Below are positions 29,891-44,972 of a stretch of DNA of 64,000 bases, in pieces. The position numbers were made by a program, and so were the translations under genes. The stretch comes from an uncultured Bacteroidales bacterium (lineage in GTDB: Bacteria; Bacteroidota; Bacteroidia; Bacteroidales; Bacteroidaceae). Location: the NCBI GenBank assembly GCA_902788315.1, contig CADAJS010000004.1, forward strand, positions 1-64,000, in the 5' to 3' direction. The stretch's first letter is position 1. Each line of letters begins with the position of its first letter. The notes beneath the pieces were generated by a model, which saw only the letters and a list, made by a program, of their open reading frames with translations, did not search any database and was not told the DNA's origin.

Positions 29891-32800
29891 ATGGAACACC
29901 TGACCAATTTATTCCAAGTACATAAAACCGTAAAATTTGAACTACGAACAATAGGTAAAACTGAAGACCTAATTAATAAAAATGGCTTTCTTTTGTCTGA
30001 TGACAAGGAGAGGGCTATGGCCTATCAGGTTGTCAAATGTCTTATTGATGACTACTATCAAAAAGAAGTCATTGCCCCACTACTTGAAAAAGTAAAAGAC
30101 AATGAGGACTGGAATCACAACTTAGTCGCGTATGGCGATGCGTCTGACAGCAACACACGTCGAGCTATATCCCAAAAATTGGCTGCTATTATAATAAAAG
30201 CCAAGCCAAATGAACCATCAGCAAATTTATTGTACACACAGCTTCACAATTACTTGCAAAAGCTGAATACCGGAGATTTATGCCGTATTCTAAAAGATTT
30301 GCAATACGATGAGATTGCGATTAAGGATAGGACTTTAAAGGCGGCTTGGAATTATAAGCTTAAGGATTTTGTTCAAGATGCCATTGACAAATTCAATGGA
30401 TTTACATTATATTTTAGTGCTTTAGCGGTTAACATGAAGCAACTATTCTCAAGGAAAAAGAATGGACTTGCTCATAGAATAATCTACCAGAATCTATATA
30501 CTTTTGTCAGAAACAAGAGAGCTCTTGATGATTTAAGGGTCGTAATAGCTGAGTTTAGAGATGAAAAAGATATAGCGGTCACAGATTTTTCCAATTACCT
30601 TCTCCAAGATGGCATTGACAAGTATAACAAGTATATCGGTCAACTTATCCAAAGGCTGAAGGAATATGAAGATAGCCACCCAAATTCATCAAGGTGGCAT
30701 AGAAGATTCAAACAGCTCAACAAGCAAATTCTAAGTCCACGAATTGCTCCAGATTGGTTGCCTGCAGCATTTACGAATGACGAAATGATGGTTGTTGCCA
30801 TTGGCGCATTCATGAAAAGCGTGAATCCTCAGCTTTCTGCCTTGAAGTTAATTATAGATCAGATAGACACATATAATGGTCATATTTTCATCTATCGCAA
30901 GTCCTTGCGTTCTATCGCAGTACAGATGACAGGGGACTATAAGGGGTTGGACGATGTATTTGTTATACCCAAAGGCTATTCTAAGAGTGAAAGCTTATCA
31001 CTCCAATGGACAACACCAGAGGTTAAGCAAGAATTCTTTGGCTTTTTGAAGGACAATCTTTCCGCTAAACTCCTTTCCATACAGCAAGCATCTTGTGAAG
31101 CAGACGAATTTCTCAACCTGAAGAAGGCTGAGGGCAATGATTATCGAAGAAATAACAAGGCGTCTGTAAGTTTAAATAAACTGATGAATGCCTATAAACA
31201 GTTATATCAGCTATTACGCCCACTTACAGGAACAGGAGAAGAAGAAGAACGAGACGAAGAGTTCTATGGTAGTTTTATGCCCATCGTTGATGCACTACAA
31301 CCTATCAATGAATTGTTTGATAGTGTAAGGAATTGGCTCACAAAAAAAGCATATAGCAATGAGTCATATCCCACATATTTAGGGGTGGCAACTATTCTTA
31401 AGAATTGGAGCAGTAAGGCTGTTTATCTCAAGAAAGACAGAAAGTATTATTTTTGTTTAGCTAGCACAAAAGGCGAAGAGAAACGCGACATTCATGATAT
31501 ACTAAAAAAAATATGGATAAGCAATAATTGTCCAAAAGACGCAGTAATCTATTTAACAAGAACTCAATCTCCAGAAAGAATCACTGCAAATTTACCAAGA
31601 ATCTTTATTCGTTCTAAAGAAGCGGATAAAGTAAACTCCTTTGTAGAAAAGCATCCAGAATTGAAAACAGAATGGGAAAAACTCAAAGGAGGTGGTTATA
31701 AATCACCAGAATTGAAAAACGAGGCTATCAGTTATTTCCAGAAATGCCTCCAATTACATGATGATTATAAGTATTATAAATACCATTTTCGTCCAGCTAA
31801 AGAATACGACGACTATGATTCATTTGTTAATTCCTTAAAGAAAGAAGCTCTATCCTTTTTTGAGGAAAAACCTATTTGCTGGAATGAACTTCTCCAACTT
31901 GTTGACGATGGAAAGGTCTATCTGTTCCAACTCTATAATAAGGACTATGCAGATAATCGTCCCGGCAATTCTTCACCTAATCTACATACTCTGTATTGGG
32001 AAGCTGTTTTCAGTCAACAGAATCGTCTATCGTATGATTTTAAGTTGGAAGAGCCCAAACTATATTTCCGAGAAAAAGCAGATGTAGTACAAAGAACTGG
32101 CGACATTCATTCTGTCCCGCTACGCTACCAAAACCCTAAAATGCATTTGCACATTCCTATTTTGATGAATGCAAACGCGCAGAATACGGTAGATGTCAAT
32201 CAACTTGTTCTTGAACAGATTCAGGCAGGTACTTTTTCGCATATCATTGGAATAGACCGTGGAGAACGAAATCTGCTCTACTACTCAGTCTTGAATATGA
32301 ATGGAAGTATTGTAGAGCAGGAGAGCTTGAATGTAATCAATGACGTTGACTACCACAAGCTCTTAATGGAAAAAGAAGCAGACCTTGATGATGAACAACG
32401 GAATTGGAAGGCTCGTAGCGGAATCCGCAAATTAAAGGAAGGGTATTTAAGTCACGCCCTACACCAATTGACAAATCTGATACGCAAGTATAATGCAATT
32501 CTTGTCGTTGAAGATTTAGACAAAGCCTTCAAACATAGTCGCCAGAAGATTGATATGCAAATCTATCAGTTGTTCGAGAAGATGTTGATAGAGAAACTGG
32601 GTTTTTGGGTTGACAAGAAAGTAAGTGATGGCAATCACGCAGGCTCTACTTTCTGTGCTTTGCAATTGGCAACACCTGGGCTAAAACAAGAAGAAAAAGG
32701 AGTCAGACAAAACGGAATCTTATTCTTTGTTCCACCAGAATACACAAGTGCTATTGACCCTGTGACTGGTTTCTGCAACCTGTTCGACAGAGAACATGTA

Positions 32801-33424
32801 AAAGATGTTAGACGAATTTTCGCACACTTCAAACGTGTTTCTTATAATGTGGATAAAGATTGGTTTGAGTTTGAATGGGATTATCAGGATGTTTTGCAAT
32901 ACACAAGATTAAAGGAATGTGCTACTCCTCAACCGTGGGTGGTGTGCTCCATGGGTGAACGCATAGAGTGGACGGGCAGTGAGCGTTATAGAAATCAGAA
33001 ATGCGAGAGCGTTGACCTGACCACAGAGTTCAAGACTTTATTTGAGAAATATAATATACAATATGTGAATGGAGAGGACTTAAAAGACGCAATTGCTTCT
33101 ATAAACAAGAAGGAAGATATCAACGAACTAAAGCGTCTGTTCTTCCTGACTGTATCACTTCGCAACAAACCAAACAAGGATACTGATTATATACTTTCGC
33201 CAGTTTGCGATGCCAACGGAGTATTCTTTGATAGCAGACTTGTTAATTCAGAGGCATTGGCCAAGCTACCTGTTGATGGTGATGCTAACGGAGCCTATAA
33301 TATCGGTAGAAAAGGATTGCTTTCCATTAACAAACTAAAGAATGGTATTAATGAACCACTTTCACTTGAAGAGTGGGTTAAATCGGTGAGACTGGAGATA
33401 TGTCAAACAACAAACCAAACTTAG
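29891..33424 (+). CDS. cas12a: Cas12a (Cpf1), type V-A CRISPR effector, compact and divergent
   Basis: RNA-guided DNA endonuclease, 1177 aa versus about 1230-1310 for well-known relatives. The N-terminus LTNLFQVHKTVKFELRTIGKT is typical. RuvC I: GIDRGERNLLYYSV with Asp789. Bridge helix: IRKLKEGYLSHALH. RuvC II: ILVVEDLDKAFK with Glu874. Nuc domain: VSLRNK with Arg1091. RuvC III: GDANGAYNIGRKG with Asp1131. The catalytic set is therefore complete. Two differences stand out. The segment L724-N760, which normally holds the pre-crRNA-processing His and Lys (in THPA and KDKRF of the Francisella enzyme), is about 21 residues shorter and lacks these motifs. The PAM-contacting Lys in LPK is Arg570 (NLPRIF). 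An array follows; no cas1, cas2 or cas4 is in the window. Confidence 0.95.
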   Translation: MEHLTNLFQVHKTVKFELRTIGKTEDLINKNGFLLSDDKERAMAYQVVKCLIDDYYQKEVIAPLLEKVKDNEDWNHNLVAYGDASDSNTRRAISQKLAAIIIKAKPNEPSANLLYTQLHNYLQKLNTGDLCRILKDLQYDEIAIKDRTLKAAWNYKLKDFVQDAIDKFNGFTLYFSALAVNMKQLFSRKKNGLAHRIIYQNLYTFVRNKRALDDLRVVIAEFRDEKDIAVTDFSNYLLQDGIDKYNKYIGQLIQRLKEYEDSHPNSSRWHRRFKQLNKQILSPRIAPDWLPAAFTNDEMMVVAIGAFMKSVNPQLSALKLIIDQIDTYNGHIFIYRKSLRSIAVQMTGDYKGLDDVFVIPKGYSKSESLSLQWTTPEVKQEFFGFLKDNLSAKLLSIQQASCEADEFLNLKKAEGNDYRRNNKASVSLNKLMNAYKQLYQLLRPLTGTGEEEERDEEFYGSFMPIVDALQPINELFDSVRNWLTKKAYSNESYPTYLGVATILKNWSSKAVYLKKDRKYYFCLASTKGEEKRDIHDILKKIWISNNCPKDAVIYLTRTQSPERITANLPRIFIRSKEADKVNSFVEKHPELKTEWEKLKGGGYKSPELKNEAISYFQKCLQLHDDYKYYKYHFRPAKEYDDYDSFVNSLKKEALSFFEEKPICWNELLQLVDDGKVYLFQLYNKDYADNRPGNSSPNLHTLYWEAVFSQQNRLSYDFKLEEPKLYFREKADVVQRTGDIHSVPLRYQNPKMHLHIPILMNANAQNTVDVNQLVLEQIQAGTFSHIIGIDRGERNLLYYSVLNMNGSIVEQESLNVINDVDYHKLLMEKEADLDDEQRNWKARSGIRKLKEGYLSHALHQLTNLIRKYNAILVVEDLDKAFKHSRQKIDMQIYQLFEKMLIEKLGFWVDKKVSDGNHAGSTFCALQLATPGLKQEEKGVRQNGILFFVPPEYTSAIDPVTGFCNLFDREHVKDVRRIFAHFKRVSYNVDKDWFEFEWDYQDVLQYTRLKECATPQPWVVCSMGERIEWTGSERYRNQKCESVDLTTEFKTLFEKYNIQYVNGEDLKDAIASINKKEDINELKRLFFLTVSLRNKPNKDTDYILSPVCDANGVFFDSRLVNSEALAKLPVDGDANGAYNIGRKGLLSINKLKNGINEPLSLEEWVKSVRLEICQTTNQT

Positions 33425-33568: not shown

Positions 33569-33591
33569 CACTCATCAACAAGTCGTATAGA

Positions 33592-33887
33592 GGCTATAAG
33601 GAATAATAATTTCTACTGTAATGTAGATAGGTCACATTGGTTTGTACACCCAGCCGGCTATAAGGAATAATAATTTCTACTGTAATGTAGATAAAAGACA
33701 AGCTGTTACCACCCCGACAGGCTATAAGGAATAATAATTTCTACTGTAATGTAGATTAGTCCCGAAATAAATAAAGTAAGGTTGGCTATAAGGAATAATA
33801 ATTTCTACTGTAATGTAGATCAACAGCTCATGGCCAATATCAATGCAGAAGGCTATAAGGAATAATAATTTCTACTGTAATATGAAT
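33592..33887 (+). CRISPR. Type V-A CRISPR array, five repeats, four spacers
   Basis: Repeats of 37 bases start at 33592, 33656, 33720, 33784 and 33851. They begin GGCTATAAGGAATAATAA and end TTTCTACTGTAATGTAGAT. The crRNA stem is TCTAC/GTAGA with a 6-base loop TGTAAT, one or two longer than usual for Cas12a. The first four repeats are identical. The fifth matches only to 33881, where the 3' arm of the stem is lost, so it is the distal end of the array. Spacers are 33629-33655, 33693-33719 and 33757-33783 (27 bases each) and 33821-33850 (30). Orientation follows the handle-then-spacer order of Cas12a guides and the leader promoter. I saw no match of any spacer to the rest of the window by eye. 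Confidence 0.97.
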
Positions 33888-34045
33888 AGACCACTAACGA
33901 TTATTGTTTTTGCCATACGATACAATTAAGGAAGTCTTGAGTCCACGGACGATAATTTAAAAAGATTACAAGCGGAATATAAAAATGTTTCCAGAAAGGT
34001 TTGATTACTAAGAGTTTGAGGACTTGCTATTCTGACCATGTAATT

Positions 34046-34909
34046 TTATTTGATTCTTCGAACGCTAACAAATTGTGTTACGTAAATACGTGAATAGCCA
34101 GTTTGAATCTCAAATGGCTCTAAATCATATAAGAATCTTTGGGATGAACGGGGAAGGTTAACACAAAGCCAATACTCATCAACATCCTTGTTCTGTTCCA
34201 TTTGCTTGTATTCTGCCAACTTGCTTTCTTTGTTTGAAATAGCATCTTTTAACGGCTCAAGTTCTATTGTTCTTGCAGGCATTGCATGTCCACCCCATCC
34301 TAATAAAACTTTTCCTTCTTGTGGCTCATCCCATAAAATATCACTGACGTATTTGTAATGTTTATTGGGTAACTCAGTTGTCATTTTATCAATTGTTTTG
34401 CAATAATGGCAATCTTCTATTCGATTTTCAATTTCTTCTATTACTTCATTTCCTATTATCTCTATATCTTTCTTTGTTAGGGATGTGTCTCTCAGTGTGT
34501 AATACAAGCCATCATAAAACCCAATAAATAATGAAATCCATTCTCCGCGTTCAGTCTTGCTTTTCTTATACCTTTTAATAATAGCATCCACTCCTTTATC
34601 TCCTATTTCATACTTATTTTGGTCTTTATTGTTCTTATGAATTAGGGCATCAGGCGGATAACACCGTGTCACTTCAAGTCCAATTCTTTTTTCTTCATAA
34701 GTAAAACGAAAGTCGGGCTTATCGCTAATACCGTCTGGCATAAGTTCAATACCAAGGCTATCAAGAATAGGCTTAATCTCAAAGTATTCGTCTCTATGTT
34801 TAGGGGATAGTTCCTGTAGGTCAAGATTAGTTTTGGAAGATGACTGACTATGCTCTAGCACACCATCTTCACTGATTTCCTGGTTGTTATTTTGTGTTGT
34901 AGAGACCAT
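34046..34909 (-). CDS. Putative PD-(D/E)XK-fold protein beside the CRISPR array
   Basis: A 287-aa protein convergent with the array. I do not recognise a named family. After an N-terminal low-complexity region of 30 residues, KPDFRFTYEEKRIGLEVTR gives an Asp, then a Glu about 14 residues on, in hydrophobic strands. A late segment with AISNKESKLAEYK and EYWLCVNL follows, an arrangement seen in restriction-endonuclease-like folds, although the usual Lys after Glu is Thr here. A central CHYC pair may bind metal. Nuclease activity is therefore only a hint. Its AT content matches the cas12a island. Promoter TATTTTTG lies at 34948-34955 (minus strand). Confidence 0.55.
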   Translation of the reverse strand: MVSTTQNNNQEISEDGVLEHSQSSSKTNLDLQELSPKHRDEYFEIKPILDSLGIELMPDGISDKPDFRFTYEEKRIGLEVTRCYPPDALIHKNNKDQNKYEIGDKGVDAIIKRYKKSKTERGEWISLFIGFYDGLYYTLRDTSLTKKDIEIIGNEVIEEIENRIEDCHYCKTIDKMTTELPNKHYKYVSDILWDEPQEGKVLLGWGGHAMPARTIELEPLKDAISNKESKLAEYKQMEQNKDVDEYWLCVNLPRSSQRFLYDLEPFEIQTGYSRIYVTQFVSVRRIK

Positions 34910-35402
34910 TGTATTGGGGTAATTTTATTATTGGGAAATGTTGGTTGCAAAAATACACAAAATACGTCAAAGTATTGCATCGTAAGCCATAAAATTCAGT
35001 TAAAAGAGGTTCTTTTCGGGCCTTTTATCTTTAAAACCGTTCTATTATTATGTTTCTTTCATTTTTTCTATATGCCTTTGCAGCGTCCAAAAGGCGACGG
35101 ACTTCAGGCAAAATGCCGCCGCCTCGAGGACTCAACGCACCACAATCCGCAAGCGGATATAGGTGAGGACCCGCATCCTGATGATGATTACTTCTATTTG
35201 CATAGTCGTAACGATTTTGGATGTCAAACACTCCTTTGGTTCGAAGTATTGACGTAAACCCTATTTATGACTAACGTCAAGTCGAGTCAACGTGAATTAA
35301 AATTAAGTTTAACCCAGGTCAACCCATATCGTGAGTAAGACCAAAAGTAGTCAACTAAAATCGTTAAACTACAGTCAAATAAATCGTCAAACTACATACG
35401 GA

Positions 35403-35524
35403 CATAACTTCGGCAGGCTACGAACATAGGTTCGGCAGACCATGAACATAGCTTCGGCAGGCCATGAACATAGGTTCGGCAGGCCATGAACATAGGTTCG
35501 GCAGGCCATGAACATAGCTTCGGA
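35403..35524. repeat. 22-bp tandem repeat, about 5.5 copies
   Basis: Units start at 35403, 35425, 35447, 35469, 35491 and 35513 (partial). The consensus opens CATAGGTTCGGCAGGCCATG and ends in AA. Units differ by at most a few bases. A related 22-mer array is found at 54120-54185. Confidence 0.9.
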
Positions 35525-35762: not shown

Positions 35763-38700
35763 ATGAAATTACAGCCCACTATGAGAGCCGTGGCTCTCGC
35801 CCTAATTACATATTGTTCCATGCCCGCCGCCGCGCAAATGGCCTACGAGGCGGGCAACGGCGGCACGAAACTGACCGGCACCCCCATCGGCAGCCCTGCC
35901 GTGGACTATTCGACGGGAGCCGTCTCCACCACCGTCAATCAGCCGGCGAATGCCTTCGACGGAAACACCACCACGTTCTATGCCTCCTATGACAGGTCGC
36001 GCACATGGGTGGGACTCGACCTGGGAGAGCCCCATGTCATCACGGGTGTGGGATGGTGTCCGCGCAACAGCAATGCCGGTACCACGCGCGTACAGCTCGG
36101 TCTGTTCGAGGCATCGAACAGTGCCGACTTCCTGGACGCCGTGCCCCTGTACCTGATTCCGAATACGGGCACCATCGGTGTCATAGAGCATGCCGACGTC
36201 AATGTCTCGCGAGGCTTCCGCTACGTGCGCTATGTGGGTCCCGCCAATGCCCGCTGTAACATCGGCGAGCTGGAGTTCTACGGCCGTCCGGGAGTGGGCG
36301 ATGACAGCCAGTTCTACCAGGTAACCAACCTGCCCACCGTCTCCATCCACACCTATTCGGGCCGCGACCCGGCCGACAAGGTGAACGAGCTCGAGTCGAA
36401 CATCACCATCACCTACGACGGTGGAAAGCGCATCCAGGAATACCCCATCACCACCCGCCTGCGCGGTAACGCATCGATGGGATTCGAAAAGAAGCCCTAT
36501 CGCATCAAGTTCAATGACGGCAAGAGCCACCACATGCTCAAGGACTCGCCACTGGAGAGCCCCGCCAAGGCCAAGAAATGGACCCTCATCAACAACTACG
36601 GCGACAAGACGCTCATGCGCAACGTGCTGGCATTCCGCTTCAGCACGCTGCTCGGCATGCCCTTCACCTCGTACATCCAGCCCGTGGACGTCATCATGAA
36701 CGGCGAGTACAAGGGCTGCTACCAGCTCTGCGACCAGATCAGCATCGACCCCCATCGTGTGATGATCACCGAGATGGAGCCCGAGGACATCACCGAGCCC
36801 GCACTGACGGGAGGCTATCTGATCGAGGTGGACGCATACGCCCGAAACGAGAGCTCGTGGTTCAACAGCAACCGAGGCAACCCGGTGACCATCAAGTCGC
36901 CCGACTCGGACGACATCATGCCGCAGCAGTCAAACTACATCCGCAACTACTTCAACCAGATGGAGGCGGCTCTCTTCAGCAACACCTATACCGACCCCGC
37001 CACGGGCTACCGACAGTTCCTCGACGTGGAGTCGTTCCTCAAGCACTTCATCGTGGGCGAGTTCTCGGGAAACACCGACACCTACTGGAGCACCTACATG
37101 TCCAAGGAGCGCGGCGAGGCCACCTTCATCGTCGGACCGTGCTGGGACTTCGACCTGGCCTTTAACAACGACAGCCGTATCTATCCCGTGAACAACCGCA
37201 GCACGTGGGTATATAGCACCAACGGCTCGGCAGCCGGCAACATGCGCTCCTTCGTCAGCCGTGTCCTCACGGACCCCTATGCCAACAATCGACTGAAGAC
37301 GCTCTGGAAGGAGATGCGCGACAGCGGCAAGTTCAGCGAGGAGAGACTCGTAGCCTTCGTGGACAGCATTGCCGACGACATACGCGCCTCGGCCACGCTC
37401 AACTTCATCCGATGGCCGATCCTGAGCAGCCGAGTCCACCAGAACCCCGTGGCCCTGGGCTCGTTCCAAGCCGAGGTGAACGTGCTGCGCACCTACATCC
37501 CCGAGCGCATCGACTGGATCGACAACTACCTGGGCTACAGCGAGGGCACCATCATCAACGACTCCACCTTCTACATTGAGACGCCGCAAGAGCTCATCGA
37601 CTTTGCCAAGTATGTCAAGAAGGGCGGCAACGGCAGCAAGGCTTACCTGATGGCCGACATCGACATGAACGGCCACAACGACGACTTCATCCCCATCGGT
37701 ACGGGACAGAAGCCCTTCTGCGGCACCTTTGACGGACAGGGCCACCGCGTGACGAACCTACATATCACGGGCTCCAACAACACCGGCTTCTTCAGCACCG
37801 TGACGGGCGGAGCCACCATCAAGAACTTCATCCTCGACGCCACATGCTCCGTCTCGGGCGAGTCGTATGTGGGCCTCATCGGTGTCTCCACCGGCTCGGG
37901 CGACATCGTCATGCAGTGTGTCGGGAACGAGGCTCCCATCAGTGCCTCGGGCGTCAACGCCGGAGGTATCATCGGATGCAACTATAGTTCGGGCGCCACC
38001 TTCATCATCGAGAACTGCTACAATGCCGGCACCATCGTAGGCGGACGCGAGAGCGGAGCACTCAGCGGATGGGTGGGCAACGGAGCACGCATCACCGACT
38101 CGTACAACATCGGCACCGTCAGCGGATATGACAATACCGACACCTACCTCTACCGAGGCGGAGCCACGCTGACCAACACCTACAGCACCCAGGGCACCCA
38201 GGGCATCATCATCGCAAGCGAGGCCGTGCCCTCAGGCGAACTCTGCTACAAGCTGAACCAGGGGAACATCCAGACCCCCGTATGGCGCCAGACCATCCAC
38301 ATGGACGACCATCCCACCTTCCTCGCCGGTCACGGCATAGTGAACACGGACGGCAAGTACTATTTCAACGAAGGCATCACCTATGCCCGCGGTGACATGG
38401 ACGGCAACGGATCTATCGATGCCACCGACCTGCAAGTGCTCGCCAACTATCTCATCGGCGCCCCGAACGAAATCTTCGTCCAGGAGAATGCCGATGTGAA
38501 CGAAGACGAGAAGATCGACCTGCTCGACCTTATCGCCACCGTAAAGCTCATCCAGGAGCAGAATGCAGTCAAGCGCCGTCGTGAACCCAGCACCGAGGAG
38601 GGCACATCCACATCGCTCACCCTGAACGACTTCAGCATCAAGGCCGCCTCGGACAAGGTGGCCAGCGTGACAGCCAGCCTGAGCGAGGCCATGACGGCCT

Positions 38701-40247
38701 TCTATGCCGAACTGACACCGAGCGAAGGGCTCACCATCGACCCGGCCTCCGTTGCCGGAGGCAGCATGAAGGGCAGCTCCCATGTCGTGAAGGCTCACGC
38801 CAAGGACGGCAAGGTGCGCCTCATCGGCTATTCGCCCAGCAACGAGACCTTCGGCACCCTCGCCGGAGAGCTGTTCCAGTTCAAGGCCACAGCCACCGAA
38901 GACTTCCCGGGCGGCACCGTCCAGATGAACGGCATCGTGACGGCCACGCCTGCCGGCAAGGCATATACCCCCGGCGACGTCACCGCCCAAGTGACGCTCG
39001 AGGCCACGCCCGTGAGCACCATCATCTTTGCCCAGGACACCTACATCATGAGCAAGGGCGACAAGATAACCCTCGAGGCCACCGTGCTCCCCGCCACCGC
39101 CACGATGAAGGATATCACATGGGCATGCTCTGACACCCACGTGGCCTACGTGGCCAGCGGCGGAATACTCACCGCACGCAACGCCGGACACGCACTGCTC
39201 ACCGCCAAGGCCAAGGACGGCTCGGGCGTAGTGGGCACGGCAAACCTGCGCGTCGTGGGCGACGACTTTGAGATAGCCAGCGCCATCGATCTGCAAGAGT
39301 TCTCCATGGCCGTCAATGCCGGATACACCGATATCACGGCCCACATGACTGCCGACATCAACATGGAAGGCATCGGCCTGGAGCCCATCGGTACGGAGAA
39401 GAACCTCTTCTCCGGCACCTTCGACGGCCAGGGCCACGTCATCAGCAACATGGTCATCGAGACCCCCAATGCCACCGCCGTCGGGCTCTTCGGCAACATC
39501 ACCTCGCCAGCCGCAATCAAGAACCTCGTGCTCGACAGCACGTGCATGATCGTGGGATATGAGAAGGCCGGACTCATCGGCCGCTCAGACCGTGCCGGAA
39601 ACATCTATCTGGAGAATCTGGGCAACGAAGGCAGCGTGACAGCCGACATCGCACCGGCAGGCATTATCGGAAATGCGAACAACAGCAGCGTGGCACTCAT
39701 CACCAACTGCTACTCGACGGGCACCATCACCACCATCACCGACGGCAAGACAAACGCCGATGCCGGACAGATCAGCGGATGGCTGGGCAACGTGGGAGCC
39801 GTGCTCACCAATTGCTGGTCCACCAGCGACATCACCGGATTCCAGACCTCCGGATTCGCATCGAGCACCGACCGCACCTTTGCCCGCACCGGCGGAGCCA
39901 AAAACACCTTCGTCAATTGCTACAGCCAGACGAGCAAGCAGGTGAACCTCACCGACATCGAGAAGTTCCGCTCGGGCGAAGTCACCTATCTGCTCAACAA
40001 CGGCCAGACGGAGAATCCCGTATGGCGCCAGACGCTCGGCACCGACCTCCACCCCACCCTGCTCTCCACACACAGCATCGTGTACAAGCTGGAGGACGAC
40101 ACGTATGCCAACGACCCGACGGGCATCGAAACAGTGCCCTTCGACCTGCAGGGAGCCGACGTCTATACCGTGACGGGCGTCAAGGTGGACAAGCCCCGAC
40201 ACGGTGGCATCTATATCATCAACGGAGTGAAGGTACTCATCAAATAA
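35763..40247 (+). CDS. Giant secreted CotH-kinase-like, dockerin- and GLUG-containing protein
   Basis: A 1494-aa exported protein. Order: signal peptide (1-25), discoidin/F5-8C-like carbohydrate-binding domain (about 40-175, NAFDGNTTTFY, ARCNIGELEFYG), CotH domain (about 190-590, TTRLRGNASMGFEKKPYRIKF, ALTGGYLIEVDAY, GPCWDFDLAFNND), GLUG-type repeats (about 610-850), type I dockerin-like segment with two calcium loops (about 875-935, GDMDGNGSIDATDLQVLANYL and DVNEDEKIDLLDL), a cohesin-like beta domain (about 950-1080), a bacterial Ig-like domain (about 1085-1165), more GLUG repeats, and a C-terminal sorting-type tail. CotH proteins phosphorylate proteins in spores; here the role is probably surface adhesion or protein assembly. 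The unusual mix suggests a large surface scaffold. Confidence 0.85.
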   Translation: MKLQPTMRAVALALITYCSMPAAAQMAYEAGNGGTKLTGTPIGSPAVDYSTGAVSTTVNQPANAFDGNTTTFYASYDRSRTWVGLDLGEPHVITGVGWCPRNSNAGTTRVQLGLFEASNSADFLDAVPLYLIPNTGTIGVIEHADVNVSRGFRYVRYVGPANARCNIGELEFYGRPGVGDDSQFYQVTNLPTVSIHTYSGRDPADKVNELESNITITYDGGKRIQEYPITTRLRGNASMGFEKKPYRIKFNDGKSHHMLKDSPLESPAKAKKWTLINNYGDKTLMRNVLAFRFSTLLGMPFTSYIQPVDVIMNGEYKGCYQLCDQISIDPHRVMITEMEPEDITEPALTGGYLIEVDAYARNESSWFNSNRGNPVTIKSPDSDDIMPQQSNYIRNYFNQMEAALFSNTYTDPATGYRQFLDVESFLKHFIVGEFSGNTDTYWSTYMSKERGEATFIVGPCWDFDLAFNNDSRIYPVNNRSTWVYSTNGSAAGNMRSFVSRVLTDPYANNRLKTLWKEMRDSGKFSEERLVAFVDSIADDIRASATLNFIRWPILSSRVHQNPVALGSFQAEVNVLRTYIPERIDWIDNYLGYSEGTIINDSTFYIETPQELIDFAKYVKKGGNGSKAYLMADIDMNGHNDDFIPIGTGQKPFCGTFDGQGHRVTNLHITGSNNTGFFSTVTGGATIKNFILDATCSVSGESYVGLIGVSTGSGDIVMQCVGNEAPISASGVNAGGIIGCNYSSGATFIIENCYNAGTIVGGRESGALSGWVGNGARITDSYNIGTVSGYDNTDTYLYRGGATLTNTYSTQGTQGIIIASEAVPSGELCYKLNQGNIQTPVWRQTIHMDDHPTFLAGHGIVNTDGKYYFNEGITYARGDMDGNGSIDATDLQVLANYLIGAPNEIFVQENADVNEDEKIDLLDLIATVKLIQEQNAVKRRREPSTEEGTSTSLTLNDFSIKAASDKVASVTASLSEAMTAFYAELTPSEGLTIDPASVAGGSMKGSSHVVKAHAKDGKVRLIGYSPSNETFGTLAGELFQFKATATEDFPGGTVQMNGIVTATPAGKAYTPGDVTAQVTLEATPVSTIIFAQDTYIMSKGDKITLEATVLPATATMKDITWACSDTHVAYVASGGILTARNAGHALLTAKAKDGSGVVGTANLRVVGDDFEIASAIDLQEFSMAVNAGYTDITAHMTADINMEGIGLEPIGTEKNLFSGTFDGQGHVISNMVIETPNATAVGLFGNITSPAAIKNLVLDSTCMIVGYEKAGLIGRSDRAGNIYLENLGNEGSVTADIAPAGIIGNANNSSVALITNCYSTGTITTITDGKTNADAGQISGWLGNVGAVLTNCWSTSDITGFQTSGFASSTDRTFARTGGAKNTFVNCYSQTSKQVNLTDIEKFRSGEVTYLLNNGQTENPVWRQTLGTDLHPTLLSTHSIVYKLEDDTYANDPTGIETVPFDLQGADVYTVTGVKVDKPRHGGIYIINGVKVLIK

Positions 40248-40271: not shown

Positions 40272-41696
40272 ATGAAACATCTCCTTTGGGTAACACTCCT
40301 GCTCTGCACGCTGGGCGTGCAGGCCAAGGGCGGCAAGGCACTCACCAGCACGGCCTCCCGCACACAGGTCTTTGAACAAAGCCGGGTAAAGAAGAGCAAG
40401 AAGGCGCTCGGCACAGTCATCCACCTCGATGCCGACCGCACCTTCCAGACCATCGATGGCTTCGGAGCTGCGCTCACCGGCTCCAGCTGCTACAACCTCA
40501 TGCGCATGACCGAGGCCGACCGCACGGCCCTCCTGCGCCGCACCTTCTCGCCCACCGACGGACTCGGCTTCAGCTACATCCGCGTCAGCATCGGGTGCAG
40601 CGACTTCTCGCTGAGCGAGTTCACGTGCTGCGACACGCCGGGCATCGAACACTTTGCCCTCACAAGCGAGGACACCCAGTACGTCATCCCTATTCTCCGC
40701 GAGATTCTGGCCATCAATCCCCGCATACTGATTCTCGGCTCGCCGTGGACCTGCCCCCGCTGGATGAAGGTGAACAACCTCGAGGACCTGCAGCCCTTCG
40801 AGTCGTGGACCAGCGGACAGCTCAACCCCAAGTACTATCAGGACTATGCCCAGTACTTCGTGCGCTGGATTCAGGCATTCGAGGCTGCCGGAGTCCCCAT
40901 CTACTCCATCACCGTGCAGAACGAACCGCTCAATCGCGGCAACTCCGCCTCCCTCTTCATGGGATGGCAGGAACAGCAGGCCTTCATCGCCCAGGCACTC
41001 GGCCCCGCCCTACAGCGTGCCGGACTCAAGACAAAGCTCTACGCCTTCGACCACAACTACAACTATGACCGCATGAAGGACCAGCAGCAGTATCCCCTCC
41101 GGGTCTATGACGACGAGACTGCCGCTGCCTTCCTCACCGGCGCCGCCTATCACAACTATGGCGGCAATCGCAGCGAGCTGCTGCGCATCGGCGAGGCACG
41201 CCCCGACAAGGAACTCATCTTCACCGAGACCAGCATCGGCATGTGGAACGACGGGCGTAATCTGGAAAAGCGCCTCACAGACGACATGCGCGAGGTAGCA
41301 CTGGGCACCGTCAACAACGGTTGCCGCGCCGTCATCGTGTGGAATTTCATGCTCGACACCGATCGCGGTCCCTTCCGTCCCGGCGGCTGTGGCACCTGCT
41401 ATGGCGCCGTCGATCTGGACAAGGACGACCTGAAGACCATCACCCTGAACTCCCACTACTACATCATCGGCCATCTCTCCTGCGTAGTCCGCCCTGGAGC
41501 CGTGCGCATCGCTGCCGACTATGAACAGCCCCGCGACGGCCTCATGTGTTCAGCCTTCCGCAACACCGACGGTACCACGGCTGCCGTCATCCTCAACGAG
41601 AAGGAACAGCAGCAGACCGTCAGCCTCACGGCCGACAAGGGACGGTACATCAACGTCCGCATCCCCGCCCGTGCCGTCTGCAGCCTCCTGTGGTAA
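40272..41696 (+). CDS. GH30-family glucosylceramidase-like glycosidase
   Basis: A 474-aa exported enzyme of glycoside hydrolase family 30. Signal peptide MKHLLWVTLLLCTLGVQA. The TIM barrel starts at TIDGFGAALTGSSCYNL. The acid/base is Glu218 in TVQNEP, and the nucleophile Glu319 in IFTETS. The barrel is followed by the small beta-domain (about 400-474). Members cleave beta-glucosides, beta-xylosides or related links. It starts 24 bases after the CotH-type gene stop, so both may be transcribed together. Confidence 0.92.
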   Translation: MKHLLWVTLLLCTLGVQAKGGKALTSTASRTQVFEQSRVKKSKKALGTVIHLDADRTFQTIDGFGAALTGSSCYNLMRMTEADRTALLRRTFSPTDGLGFSYIRVSIGCSDFSLSEFTCCDTPGIEHFALTSEDTQYVIPILREILAINPRILILGSPWTCPRWMKVNNLEDLQPFESWTSGQLNPKYYQDYAQYFVRWIQAFEAAGVPIYSITVQNEPLNRGNSASLFMGWQEQQAFIAQALGPALQRAGLKTKLYAFDHNYNYDRMKDQQQYPLRVYDDETAAAFLTGAAYHNYGGNRSELLRIGEARPDKELIFTETSIGMWNDGRNLEKRLTDDMREVALGTVNNGCRAVIVWNFMLDTDRGPFRPGGCGTCYGAVDLDKDDLKTITLNSHYYIIGHLSCVVRPGAVRIAADYEQPRDGLMCSAFRNTDGTTAAVILNEKEQQQTVSLTADKGRYINVRIPARAVCSLLW

Positions 41697-41903: not shown

Positions 41904-42806
41904 TCAGCGCAGCTCGGTGGGCTGTACGGCGTCCATGTCGCCATAGTCGAGGTTCTCCCCCGCCATGCCCCAGATGAAGGTGTAGCTGGCGGTGCCTGCT
42001 CCGGCATGGATGGACCACTCGGGCGAGATGACAGCCTGCTCGTTGTGCAGCCACACGACGCGCGTCTCCTGCGGCTCGCCCATGAAATGGCTGACGGCCT
42101 GCGACTCGGGCAGGTCGAAGTAGAAATAGGCTTCCATGCGGCGCGAATGGGTGTGGGCCGGCATGGTGTTCCATACGGAACCCGACTTCAGCTCCGTCAT
42201 GCCCATCTGCAGCTGGCAGGTCTTCACCGTCTTCTGCACGATGAGGCGGTTGATGACACGGTCGTTGGACTCGGCCGCACTGCCTGCCTTCAGCACGTCG
42301 GCATCGGCCAGCGTGACCTTCTTGGCGGGATAAGACGTGTGGGCCGCAGCGCTGTTGAAATAGAAGTGAGCCGGATGGTTAGCATCGGCCGAGGAGAAGA
42401 AGACCTCGTGGTCTCCGCTGCCCACATAGAGCGCTTCGCGGTTCTTGAGTTCATACTTCTTGTCGCCCACGGTGACGGTGCCCGTGCCGCCCACATTGAT
42501 GATACCGATCTCACGGCGGTGGAGGAAGTTGGGAGCCTTGAGCGGATCGATGGTCTCCAACTTCACGCGCTCCTTGACTGGCATCACGCCGCCCACGATA
42601 AAGCGGTCATGAATGGAATAGACGAGGTTTACGGAGTCGGGCGAGAAGAGTTTCTCGACCACAAAGCGGCTGCGCAAGGTCTGCGTGTCATAGTGCTTTA
42701 CGTCCTCCGGATGAGTGGCGTAACGCAGTTCGTAGTTGGTGTGTGTCTGTGCCATAACAGATGCTGATGTAAGGGCAATGCCCAGCAAAAATAATTTAAT
42801 TTTCAT
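41904..42806 (-). CDS. kduI: 5-keto-4-deoxyuronate isomerase KduI with a signal peptide
   Basis: Isomerises 5-keto-4-deoxyuronate to 2,5-diketo-3-deoxygluconate, a step in pectin and glycosaminoglycan breakdown. Length 300 aa. The zinc-binding region WNTMPAHTHSRRMEAYFYF and HNEQAVISPEWSIHAG are intact and match the E. coli enzyme well by eye. It differs from the E. coli enzyme by starting with a signal peptide (MKIKLFLLGIALTSASVMAQ), so it may act in the periplasm. Its ATG overlaps the TGA of the permease gene (ATGA). Confidence 0.95.
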   Translation of the reverse strand: MKIKLFLLGIALTSASVMAQTHTNYELRYATHPEDVKHYDTQTLRSRFVVEKLFSPDSVNLVYSIHDRFIVGGVMPVKERVKLETIDPLKAPNFLHRREIGIINVGGTGTVTVGDKKYELKNREALYVGSGDHEVFFSSADANHPAHFYFNSAAAHTSYPAKKVTLADADVLKAGSAAESNDRVINRLIVQKTVKTCQLQMGMTELKSGSVWNTMPAHTHSRRMEAYFYFDLPESQAVSHFMGEPQETRVVWLHNEQAVISPEWSIHAGAGTASYTFIWGMAGENLDYGDMDAVQPTELR

Positions 42807-44161
42807 ACGTTATTATTTATTTTCTTGTAGTTCCAAAGGACAAGGACACCCGTACAGAGTGCGGCAGCGGCGATACCGACATAGCGCAGGGTGGTGAAGA
42901 GATGATAGGTGGCCCAGCAGAAGAGGCTGGAGGCAAAGTCCAGTGCGGCGCCGGCACTGAAGCCCTCGGGGATGCGCACGGAGGCGTCCTCGGGATGAAT
43001 CTGGGCTACGGAGTTGGCCGCCACGGTGAATGCCTCGGCAATATTCGTGGCAAAGTAGAGCCCCACGACGAGCGCAACGAGACCGATGAGGAAGGTCTTC
43101 AGGACATTGCCTCGCGTGATGGGCAGCACCACGGGGAACAGATAGAACAGACCGGCCAGCGACGCCAGGGGCAGGAACTTATTGCCGGGCAGCACCACGG
43201 CAAGCAGCAACACCACCGGAATCAGAAGCAGCGAGACGACGAGCGTGGTGGGATGGCCGATGACGAGGGCAGGACTCATGCCGATGTGCAGGCGGGCCTT
43301 CTCGCCGAAGCGGCGTGAGATCATCTGCTTCGTAGCCTCGGAGATGGGGATGAGCCCGTCGATGAAGAGGCGTGTGATGCGCGGAATGAGCTCCATCACA
43401 GCTCCCATCTTGACACCCAGGAGCAACGTGGCGGCCACATCGTAACGTGCCAGCACGCCGATGGCACAGCCCACGATGACGCCGAGAAAGAGCGGTTCGC
43501 CCAGCACGCCGAAGCGGCGTTTCAGCCCGTCGGCATCGACATCCAGGCGGTCGAAGCCCGGGATGCGGTCGAACACCTTGCCCAGCACCACGGCAAAGGG
43601 CACAAAGCTCTGGCAGAAAGGCTGCGGGATGGAGATGCCGTCCATGCCGTCGTAGTAAGACTGGAATCCATCGGCAGTGCGGTCGGCCATGACAAGCGTC
43701 ACGATGAAACAGAAGATGGCTGCAGCAAAGCCATAGGCCAGACTGTCGGTGGCGAAATAGACAATGGCGCCGATGAAGGCGTAGTGCCAATAGTTCCACA
43801 GGTCGATGTTCACCGTGCGAGTGGTGCGCGTCAGGAGCATCAGCACATTGATGCCCAGGCAGACGGGGATGATGAGCGCACCCACCGCCGTGTTATAAGC
43901 CACCGCAGCCGCGGCAGGCCAACCCATATCGAAGATGTCCAACTGGAGCCCATAGACGCCCACCACCGTCTCGAGCGCCGGACCCAACGCGCTGGTGAGC
44001 AGCCCCGTGACCACACTCAGCCCTACGAAGCCCACTCCGACATAGAGGCCGGAGAGCAGCGCCTTGCCGGGCTTAATCTTGAGCAGGATGCCGAGCAGGG
44101 TGAAGATGATGGGCATCATCACCGAGGCACCGAGCGAGATAATGTATGCAAAGATATTCAT
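42803..44161 (-). CDS. GatC-like permease (PTS EIIC family), uronate transport candidate
   Basis: A polytopic membrane protein of about 452 aa with the GatC/EIIC fold: N-terminus MNIFAYIISLGASVMMPIIF, then MGWPAAAAVAYNTAVGALIIPVCLGIN and the repeated IGHPTTLVVSLLLIPVVLLLAV. Start fixed at MNIFAYII. It sits between kduD and kduI, overlapping kduI by four bases. I see no EIIA, EIIB, HPr or EI gene near it, so it may work without phosphorylation as a permease for an unsaturated or keto-deoxy uronate. Substrate inferred from the operon. Confidence 0.85.
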   Translation of the reverse strand: MNIFAYIISLGASVMMPIIFTLLGILLKIKPGKALLSGLYVGVGFVGLSVVTGLLTSALGPALETVVGVYGLQLDIFDMGWPAAAAVAYNTAVGALIIPVCLGINVLMLLTRTTRTVNIDLWNYWHYAFIGAIVYFATDSLAYGFAAAIFCFIVTLVMADRTADGFQSYYDGMDGISIPQPFCQSFVPFAVVLGKVFDRIPGFDRLDVDADGLKRRFGVLGEPLFLGVIVGCAIGVLARYDVAATLLLGVKMGAVMELIPRITRLFIDGLIPISEATKQMISRRFGEKARLHIGMSPALVIGHPTTLVVSLLLIPVVLLLAVVLPGNKFLPLASLAGLFYLFPVVLPITRGNVLKTFLIGLVALVVGLYFATNIAEAFTVAANSVAQIHPEDASVRIPEGFSAGAALDFASSLFCWATYHLFTTLRYVGIAAAALCTGVLVLWNYKKINNNV

Positions 44162-44180
44162 ATTCAGGAGGCGGGAGGGG

Positions 44181-44972
44181 TTATGGCTGTTTGCCGATGT
44201 AGGCCAGAATGCCGCCATCGACGTATAGGACATGGCCGTTCACGAAGTCGGAGGCCGAGGAAGCCAGGAAGACTGCCGGCCCCTCGAGGTCGGCCGTAGT
44301 ACCCCAGCGGGCAGCGGGAGTCTTGGCCACGATGAAGGCATCGAAGGGGTGGCGGCTGCCGTCGGCCTGACGTTCGCGCAGGGGTGCAGTCTGCGGCGTG
44401 GCTATATAGCCGGGACCTATGGCGTTGCACTGGATGTTATAGGCACCATACTCGGATGCCATGTTACGCGTAAGCATCTTCAGTCCGCCCTTGGCTGCCG
44501 CGTATGCCGAGACCGTCTCGCGCCCCAGCTCGCTCATCATGGAGCAGATGTTGATAATCTTGCCATGTCCCAGGCGCATCATGCCGGGCAGGACGGCCTT
44601 GCTCACGATGAAGGGCGCCACGAGGTCGATGTCGATTACCTGCTGATATTCCTCCACCTTCATCTCATGCATGGGGATGCGCTTGATGATGCCGGCGTTG
44701 TTGACCAGAATGTCAATGGTGCCCAGCTTCTGCCCGATGTCGGCCACCATCTTCCCGACGCCGTCCTCGTCCGTCACATCGCAGATATAGCCCTGCGCTT
44801 CGATGCCCAGCGCTTCATAATCGCGGAGCGCCTGCTCCAGATGGGCCTGGCTGCGACAATTGAAAGCCAATCGTGCGCCAGCCTCGGCCAATGCCTTGCC
44901 GATGGCAAAGCCAATGCCGTAGCTGCCGCCCGTCACAAGCGCCACACGGCCTTTCAGCGAAAAGTCTGTCAT
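44181..44972 (-). CDS. kduD: 2-deoxy-3-keto-D-gluconate (KduD-type) dehydrogenase
   Basis: A 263-aa short-chain dehydrogenase that reduces 2,5-diketo-3-deoxygluconate with NAD(P)H in the uronate pathway. NAD motif TGGSYGIGFAIG (about residue 15), NNAG, catalytic Ser in INICSMMSELG, and YAAAKGG with Tyr and Lys. The C-terminus ends VNGHVLYVDGGI. First gene of the kdu operon; the promoter TAAATTTG lies at 45001-45008 (minus strand). Close relatives are annotated gluconate 5-dehydrogenase, so the kdu role rests on context. Confidence 0.93.
   Translation of the reverse strand: MTDFSLKGRVALVTGGSYGIGFAIGKALAEAGARLAFNCRSQAHLEQALRDYEALGIEAQGYICDVTDEDGVGKMVADIGQKLGTIDILVNNAGIIKRIPMHEMKVEEYQQVIDIDLVAPFIVSKAVLPGMMRLGHGKIINICSMMSELGRETVSAYAAAKGGLKMLTRNMASEYGAYNIQCNAIGPGYIATPQTAPLRERQADGSRHPFDAFIVAKTPAARWGTTADLEGPAVFLASSASDFVNGHVLYVDGGILAYIGKQP

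Follow-up and report, generated by a model that had tools for sequence, protein, structure and literature searches.

A CotH kinase-like protein of a rumen-type Bacteroidaceae bacterium with a dockerin and a predicted cohesin in one chain

The gene described here encodes a 1494-residue protein and lies in a stretch of 64,000 nucleotides (the window) from an uncultured, rumen-type gut bacterium of the Bacteroidaceae (assembly GCA_902788315.1, contig CADAJS010000004.1). The open reading frame (ORF) starts with ATG and occupies positions 35763-40247 of the forward strand. From the N terminus, its product comprises a CBM62-like F5/8C domain, a CotH domain, a GLUG-like block, a type I dockerin, a predicted cohesin, a Big_2 domain, a second GLUG-like block and a tail resembling those of the type IX secretion system (T9SS). 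The explanation preferred here, with a confidence somewhat above an even chance, is that of a secreted adaptor, probably attached to the cell surface, whose single plug and single socket link a lectin and a kinase to a network of cohesins and dockerins. Sequence or predicted folds show which domains are present, their motifs for catalysis and calcium binding, the conservation of the layout, and candidate partner modules in the genome.

Results

Domain composition of the 1494-residue protein

The coding status of the gene is secure because the nearest relative found (L071, from a metagenome-assembled genome labelled Bacteroidaceae) aligned over 1494 codons at 77% identity, with a ratio of nonsynonymous to synonymous divergence (pN/pS) of 0.29. 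Relatives at 77, 69 and 61% identity covered nearly the full length of the protein. Pfam assigned F5_F8_type_C to residues 59-161 (6.2e-7), CotH to 232-585 (2e-48), Dockerin_1 to 877-923 (4.4e-8) and Big_2 to 1084-1155 (5.9e-7). An initial annotation of this DNA had placed CotH, F5/8C, dockerin-like and cohesin-like domains in one protein, and all four were confirmed by Pfam, by predicted fold or by both; the Big_2 domain is additional to those that it named. Its GLUG label held less well, in that no Pfam GLUG match was obtained in the protein at E ≤ 1, and what stands is a block resembling 3n6z (2.3e-4) that is present twice. Two copies were counted because the single block of each shorter ortholog matched both positions. 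The second block is an extra copy found in the window protein and in L071-L073, and corresponds to a gap in the aligned orthologs of ∼1200 residues (alignment A2).

The CotH match (PF08757) scored 166 bits against a cut-off of 23.8. A structure predicted for residues 33-600, with a predicted local distance difference test score (pLDDT) of 86.0, placed the CotH domain close to the Bacillus cereus spore coat kinase CotH (5jd9; Z 29.9, root mean square deviation (rmsd) 3.1, 333 residues aligned). N437-x-D439 and W461-D462-F-D464 aligned with the corresponding motifs of the Bacillus protein and were invariant in 44/44 rows of an alignment (A4) that used 43 of 50 listed relatives (L079, L090, L091, L092, L094, L095 and L131 were omitted). 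From the Bacillus CotH literature, we take the motif aspartates to be catalytic or metal-binding; the domain is a putative kinase. It differs from Bacillus CotH (5jd9, 5jda) in its setting, since it forms part of a surface-type protein with several domains from outside the Bacillus lineage. The F5/8C domain matched the CBM62 structure 2yb7 at 6.5e-22, or at 1.6e-30 with a family profile, and its model superimposed on 2yfu with Z 23.3 and rmsd 1.4 over 138 residues at 39% identity. Galactose or arabinopyranose is presumably the ligand preference of CBM62.

The dockerin and the predicted cohesin

The dockerin (PF00404) scored 33.6 bits against a cut-off of 22.9. Six of its residues, D878, D889, D911, N913, D915 and D922, were invariant in 37/37 rows of an alignment of the dockerin-to-Big_2 region (A3; 36 relatives and the window protein, L090 being omitted as cut by a contig end), and the positions between them varied. 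An AlphaFold model of residues 860-1168 built from A3 had a mean pLDDT of 91.2 and a predicted template modeling score of 0.78. When residues 946-1080 of this model were compared with the PDB, the best match was the cohesin 5nrk_A (Z 16.3, rmsd 2.1, 132/143 residues aligned), followed by 1aoh, 2xdh and 3ul4, each with Z 15.3; the top 18 rows were all cohesins or cohesin-containing chains.

Support for this assignment from sequence comparison was mixed. The Pfam cohesin family PF00963 was matched by 0/17 aligned members, the window protein included, at E ≤ 0.1, and a profile of the 17 orthologs (A1) searched against the PDB matched dockerins and Big_2 domains and no cohesin at E ≤ 1. A cohesin profile built from the CotH family only (37 rows) directly matched Pfam-called cohesins at contig C6 of the same genome (2.7e-7) and at L189 (6.3e-10); it did not match those of L195 or L198. 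A wider profile of 29 domains (A5), whose rows include the window cohesin, both C6 domains and some Pfam-recognised cohesins, found cohesin chains in all of the first ten places of its PDB search (E 1.1e-5 to 0.027), among them 2ozn, which we take to be a cohesin. Residues 946-1080 are taken to be a cohesin. The outcome that the initial annotation had named as refuting its idea, a generic Ig-like fold or one unrelated to EF-hands, did not occur, because family models, calcium-loop residues and predicted fold support both modules. Binding between dockerin and cohesin would be expected to depend on calcium.

Candidate partners in the same genome

Candidate partner dockerins and cohesins, for which a search of the genome had been proposed, were found. 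Pfam recognised one cohesin in the genome, whereas the A5 profile recognised seven in five proteins: one in the window protein, others in two genes at contig C6 and in two genes at contig C19, one of which carries three. Dockerins were found in three proteins, encoded in the window, at C6 and at C19, each of which also carries a cohesin, and both orders of the two modules occur. At C6 (118099-119301, L060), a 1474-residue leucine-rich repeat (LRR)/GLUG-like protein ends in cohesin-dockerin and is followed by a 398-residue cohesin protein with a T9SS-like tail similar to that of its neighbor, so that the two genes look like a pair. At C19 (1-8608, L070), a 2134-residue protein, helical-looking by eye, has a degenerate dockerin (22.0 bits against a cut-off of 22.9), a cohesin and a tail, and is followed, near the contig start, by the three-cohesin protein, whose matches were weaker (E 1.2e-13 to 3.5e-9). 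One more short dockerin match, at C3 (E 0.27), is probably due to chance. The genome contains six further CotH genes.

No glycosidase domain was detected by Pfam in the CotH and LRR dockerin proteins, the 2134-residue protein of C19 being judged by eye. Because none of the three dockerin proteins appears to be a glycosidase, this genome probably does not encode a classical cellulosome, which would be marked by many dockerin-bearing plant-cell-wall enzymes in the genome. Some enzymes of that type do bear dockerins in relatives. The three-cohesin protein of C19 may be a multi-cohesin scaffoldin.

Distribution among relatives and in the genus

A single-sequence search of GTDB genome contigs found no relative. 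A profile search of the same contigs with A2 gave 388, and the best 79 loci of these were analysed; their sources include cattle, sheep, goat, yak, deer, reindeer and buffalo. CotH, dockerin and cohesin occurred together in 39 ORFs at 37 of these 79 loci, and 37/39 ORFs also had Big_2; the remaining loci had CotH without a match to the dockerin-cohesin region. The layout, which had been called unusual, is thus not so among close relatives. At E ≤ 1e-5, the dockerin-cohesin region was matched in 37/101 searched genomes, many by the dockerin part only, and in 5/42 genomes that are ≥90% complete. Two CotH-dockerin-cohesin genes lie in tandem at each of L074 and L075.

Among 61 genomes of the genus, dockerins were found in at least 54 at E ≤ 0.001, with up to 30 per genome among the matches listed. 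At the same threshold, cohesins were found in at least 49/61 with A5, a profile built partly from these genomes. Pfam cohesins were found in 38/61 at E ≤ 0.1, with 25 above the Pfam cut-off. Given this difference, and that of one versus seven cohesins in the genome of the window, the data suggest that Pfam counts underestimate cohesins in this group.

The surroundings of 46 dockerins were analysed at 45 loci (L235-L279), a best-match and hand-picked rather than random sample: 29 new loci from the dockerin search minus L176 (too short), plus 17 picked, with L217 and L218 omitted as they had been chosen for their cohesins. No cohesin was detected within 60 residues of 42/46 dockerins by two self-made profiles of limited reach (an iterated cohesin profile recovered 8/20 PF00963 loci), which argues that a dockerin needs no cohesin in its own chain; 44/46 dockerins lay within 30 residues of the frame end. 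Whole frames scanned at E ≤ 1e-8 contained CotH (9), Endonuclease_1 (5), RGL11_C (rhamnogalacturonan lyase; 3), Glyco_hydro_cc (3), Peptidase_M60, C25 and M6 (one each), LRR_5 (6), DUF285 (5) and Big_2 (8), some of them combined. CotH was the commonest partner family (9/45), partly from recurring orthologs. A view of the dockerin proteins of the genus as mostly adhesins with few enzymes was withdrawn because C-terminal pieces had cut off the upstream domains. The CotH proteins of this sample (L235 and relatives; eight in alignment A7, one in A8) share F5/8C, CotH and dockerin with the window protein, but their dockerin is terminal, and no cohesin was detected in the frame.

In at least two relatives (G005:C65 and G055:C39), a gene for a protein with three cohesins and a C-terminal dockerin precedes one for a protein that has a single cohesin and a tail. 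The arrangement looks like a scaffoldin set with mixed cargo.

Evolution of the binding modules

Either the dockerin or the cohesin had the highest pN/pS of six domains compared in 10/10 close pairs, defined as those with pS <0.55 out of 703. Between the window protein and L071, pN/pS was 0.68 for the cohesin, 0.15 for the adjacent Big_2 domain and 0.23 for CotH, at similar pS. Such values would be as expected for modules of evolving specificity. In the cohesin, strands 5 and 8 were the most variable (mean entropy 2.46 and 1.85). The dockerin-binding sheet of cohesins consists of strands 8-3-6-5. An argument from variability of the binding face was set aside as too weak, given that the other two strands of this sheet, 3 and 6, were less variable (1.22 and 1.53).

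Tail, neighboring genes and feature coordinates

Six tail residues, Y1468, G1472, G1482, Y1484, I1485 and G1488, were invariant in 17/17 aligned members, and PorV is present in the genome; the route of secretion would putatively be that of a T9SS. The GH30 gene that follows the CotH gene, possibly in the same transcript, is also found there in L071, L073, L074 and L075. It was not seen in the DNA examined at the other 33/37 dockerin-cohesin loci, some of which end near the CotH gene. It also occurs at L141, where the CotH protein is without the dockerin and cohesin modules. GH30 was rejected as a family-wide functional partner, since it stands beside the CotH gene only here and in those four relatives.

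Upstream in the window, a Cas12a gene (29891-33424, +; TIGR04330 2e-196, PADLOC Cas12a 4e-222) is followed by a short CRISPR array (33587-33903) of five repeats at 64-67-nucleotide spacing, the last repeat being degenerate. Between the array and the CotH gene lies a 287-residue ORF (34046-34909, −) with no match in Pfam, NCBIfam or PADLOC. Some 240 nucleotides before the start of the CotH gene lie six tandem copies of a 22-nucleotide unit (35402-35523), whose core turned up, among the other loci compared, in L006 alone, which covers the same place. Downstream (41904-44233, −), a KduI-type isomerase gene overlaps a membrane protein gene that resembles the galactitol phosphotransferase system EIIC family below its cut-off (401 versus 542 bits).

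Table 1. Features of the CotH gene and its surroundings, with related gene pairs. Coordinates refer to the window unless a locus is given.
Feature	Coordinates	Strand	Basis
Full gene, for a probably secreted CotH kinase-like protein of 1494 residues that has a dockerin and a predicted cohesin	35763..40247	+	ORF, relatives, pN/pS
Probable signal peptide, residues ~1-25	35763..35837	+	By eye: hydrophobic stretch, small residues at end
CBM62-like F5/8C carbohydrate-binding domain, residues 33-178	35859..36296	+	Pfam, CBM62 sequence match, model
CotH kinase domain (predicted), residues 189-592	36327..37538	+	PF08757, 5jd9 fold, N437/D439 and W461-D462-F-D464 motifs
GLUG-like block 1, residues 600-870	37560..38372	+	Similarity to 3n6z
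Type I dockerin, residues 876-930, two calcium loops	38388..38552	+	PF00404, invariant loop residues
Predicted cohesin, residues 946-1080, missed by Pfam	38598..39002	+	AlphaFold model versus PDB; family profile
Big_2 Ig-like domain, residues 1081-1168	39003..39266	+	PF02368 5.9e-7; 7quz Z 14.8, rmsd 1.2
GLUG-like block 2, residues 1169-1450	39267..40112	+	Single block of shorter orthologs matches both blocks
C-terminal tail, Y-x3-G...GxYIxxG, resembling T9SS sorting tail	40113..40244	+	Conservation in 17/17
Next gene: GH30 endo-1,6-beta-glucanase, 24 nucleotides downstream	40272..41696	+	NF053856 8.6e-231
Scaffoldin-like gene pairs in rumen Bacteroidota	L217:1839-5153, L218:2145-5453		Three cohesins and dockerin, then one cohesin and tail

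Discussion

As an adaptor, the protein would act through each of its parts. The CBM62-like domain would bind a galactose- or arabinose-bearing glycan, and the phosphorylation substrate of the CotH domain would be its own protein or another member of the complex. With calcium, dockerin and cohesin would provide one contact apiece to other proteins on the surface of the same cell that carry a cohesin or a dockerin, making the protein a one-plug, one-socket node of the network.

Several observations weigh against this explanation. In the model of residues 860-1168, the linker between dockerin and cohesin was poorly predicted (block means 66 and 55), and the model was uninformative on contacts between the two modules. 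The tail was not listed by TIGR04183 at E ≤ 0.1. No match to the SprA model was found in the genome, a result that carries no information because the model matched none of the controls either. The high pN/pS of dockerin and cohesin could be relaxed constraint; pS was near saturation in 8/10 close pairs and the pairs share sequences, so that the fast change of these modules is a pattern rather than a test. Finally, a mirror-tree analysis (partial Mantel test, 36 sequences, CotH distances controlled) gave no special co-divergence of dockerin and cohesin (partial r 0.82, against 0.88 for GLUG-cohesin and 0.83 for GLUG-dockerin). Co-divergence was also tried as an argument for intramolecular pairing, and no conclusion was drawn given that the dockerin-cohesin value did not exceed the other two.

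Pairing within the chain was nevertheless weighed as an explanation in its own right. A dockerin folded onto the cohesin of its own chain would need no outside partner, the pair serving as a stalk or latch that depends on calcium. In keeping with such a clasp, each of the three dockerins found in the genome (one degenerate) is accompanied on its chain by a cohesin, which may come before or after it; the pair also recurs in the 39 ORFs, and the linker in the window protein is ∼15 residues. The C6 and three-cohesin proteins, however, have the dockerin after the cohesin with almost no linker, most sampled dockerins of the genus have no detected cohesin nearby, and the mirror-tree analysis gave no special signal for the pair; a clasp is thus credible but unlikely. 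The surface self-assembly suggested by the initial annotation, in which the dockerin of one copy would bind the cohesin of the next to form a fibre, was judged improbable. A fibre needs at least one plug and one socket on each molecule, as here, and the tandem genes of L074 and L075 would suit it. Self-assembly is not favored, given that these contacts could also be taken by other cohesins and dockerins encoded in the genome and that co-divergence of dockerin and cohesin was no greater than that with neighboring domains. With seven cohesins and three dockerin proteins in the genome, a partner on another protein is no less likely than self-pairing.

Explanations that deny the modules a binding role fared worse. 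Dockerin and cohesin might be non-binding EF-hand and Ig-like spacers of a glycan-binding surface protein, which would agree with their being the fastest-changing of the six domains compared and with two CotH paralogues of the same genome (L063 and L064) that have other C termini and no dockerin match. Little credence is given to this idea, as six calcium-loop residues were retained in every row of A3 while the positions between them varied. That the cohesin-like segment is an annotation artefact, a generic Ig-like fold, was already disfavored and is now very improbable: the failure of Pfam and of the ortholog profile to find a cohesin, and the cadherins, titin and pilins also listed by Foldseek, are set against a whole-domain alignment that ranks cohesins first and a family profile that matches Pfam-recognised cohesins directly.

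Given these considerations, the adaptor remains the preferred explanation, and it can be compared with known systems. The adaptor scaffoldin ScaC of Ruminococcus flavefaciens reportedly combines one cohesin and one dockerin in one protein; the window protein differs in also having a putative kinase, a lectin and GLUG-like blocks. Among the nearest cohesins by profile or fold are the non-cellulosomal ones of large secreted glycosidases of Clostridium perfringens (2jh2, 2o4e, 2w1n and 2vo8), which differ in host protein, phylum and domain set.

The presence of CotH in cellulosomes, and of CotH with dockerins in fungi, were already known from the passages available of earlier reports: CotH proteins appear in a table of cellulosomal proteins of C. 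thermocellum (Cthe_0044/CseP and Cthe_0239; PMC6083626), and anaerobic fungi have CotH proteins with dockerins (PMC8665504). In those passages, structural, regulatory or wall-binding roles are suggested for CotH (PMC12484212, PMC8665504). What the window protein shares with these clostridial and fungal proteins is a CotH module on a secreted member of a cohesin-dockerin system, and with the fungal ones also the dockerin; it differs in belonging to the Bacteroidota, in having a CBM62-like domain before CotH and a cohesin in the same chain, and in coming from a genome with only three dockerin proteins. Cohesins have been reported in certain Bacteroidetes (PMC6071333), and the corresponding passages on rumen Bacteroidetes place dockerins on glycoside hydrolase (GH), domain of unknown function (DUF) and carbohydrate-binding module (CBM) proteins and describe no CotH protein with both modules (PMC7480376, PMC6071333). 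No protein combining CotH, dockerin and cohesin was found in the open-licence literature, subscription papers lying outside this scope. The initial annotation had also stated that CotH proteins of rumen bacteria have been discussed as possible phosphorylators of surface structures; in the passages available, the statement does not appear in that form.

The 1494-residue protein may link other parts of a surface complex that has been little studied. Because only three dockerin proteins and seven cohesins were found in its genome, a single experiment could cover all pairwise contacts. More tentatively, and with less confidence than is placed in the adaptor itself, rumen Bacteroidota might possess a surface network of scaffoldin-like proteins with three cohesins and tail-bearing proteins with one; up to ∼30 dockerins per genome, borne by CotH proteins, LRR adhesins, nucleases, pectin lyases and peptidases, would belong to it, and dual-module CotH kinases would regulate it by phosphorylating its components. 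What dockerins do in the polysaccharide utilization loci of rumen Bacteroidetes has been called not yet defined (PMC7480376), and the role of CotH in cellulosomes not clear yet (PMC12484212), in the passages available; the family of the window protein unites these two puzzles in one protein.

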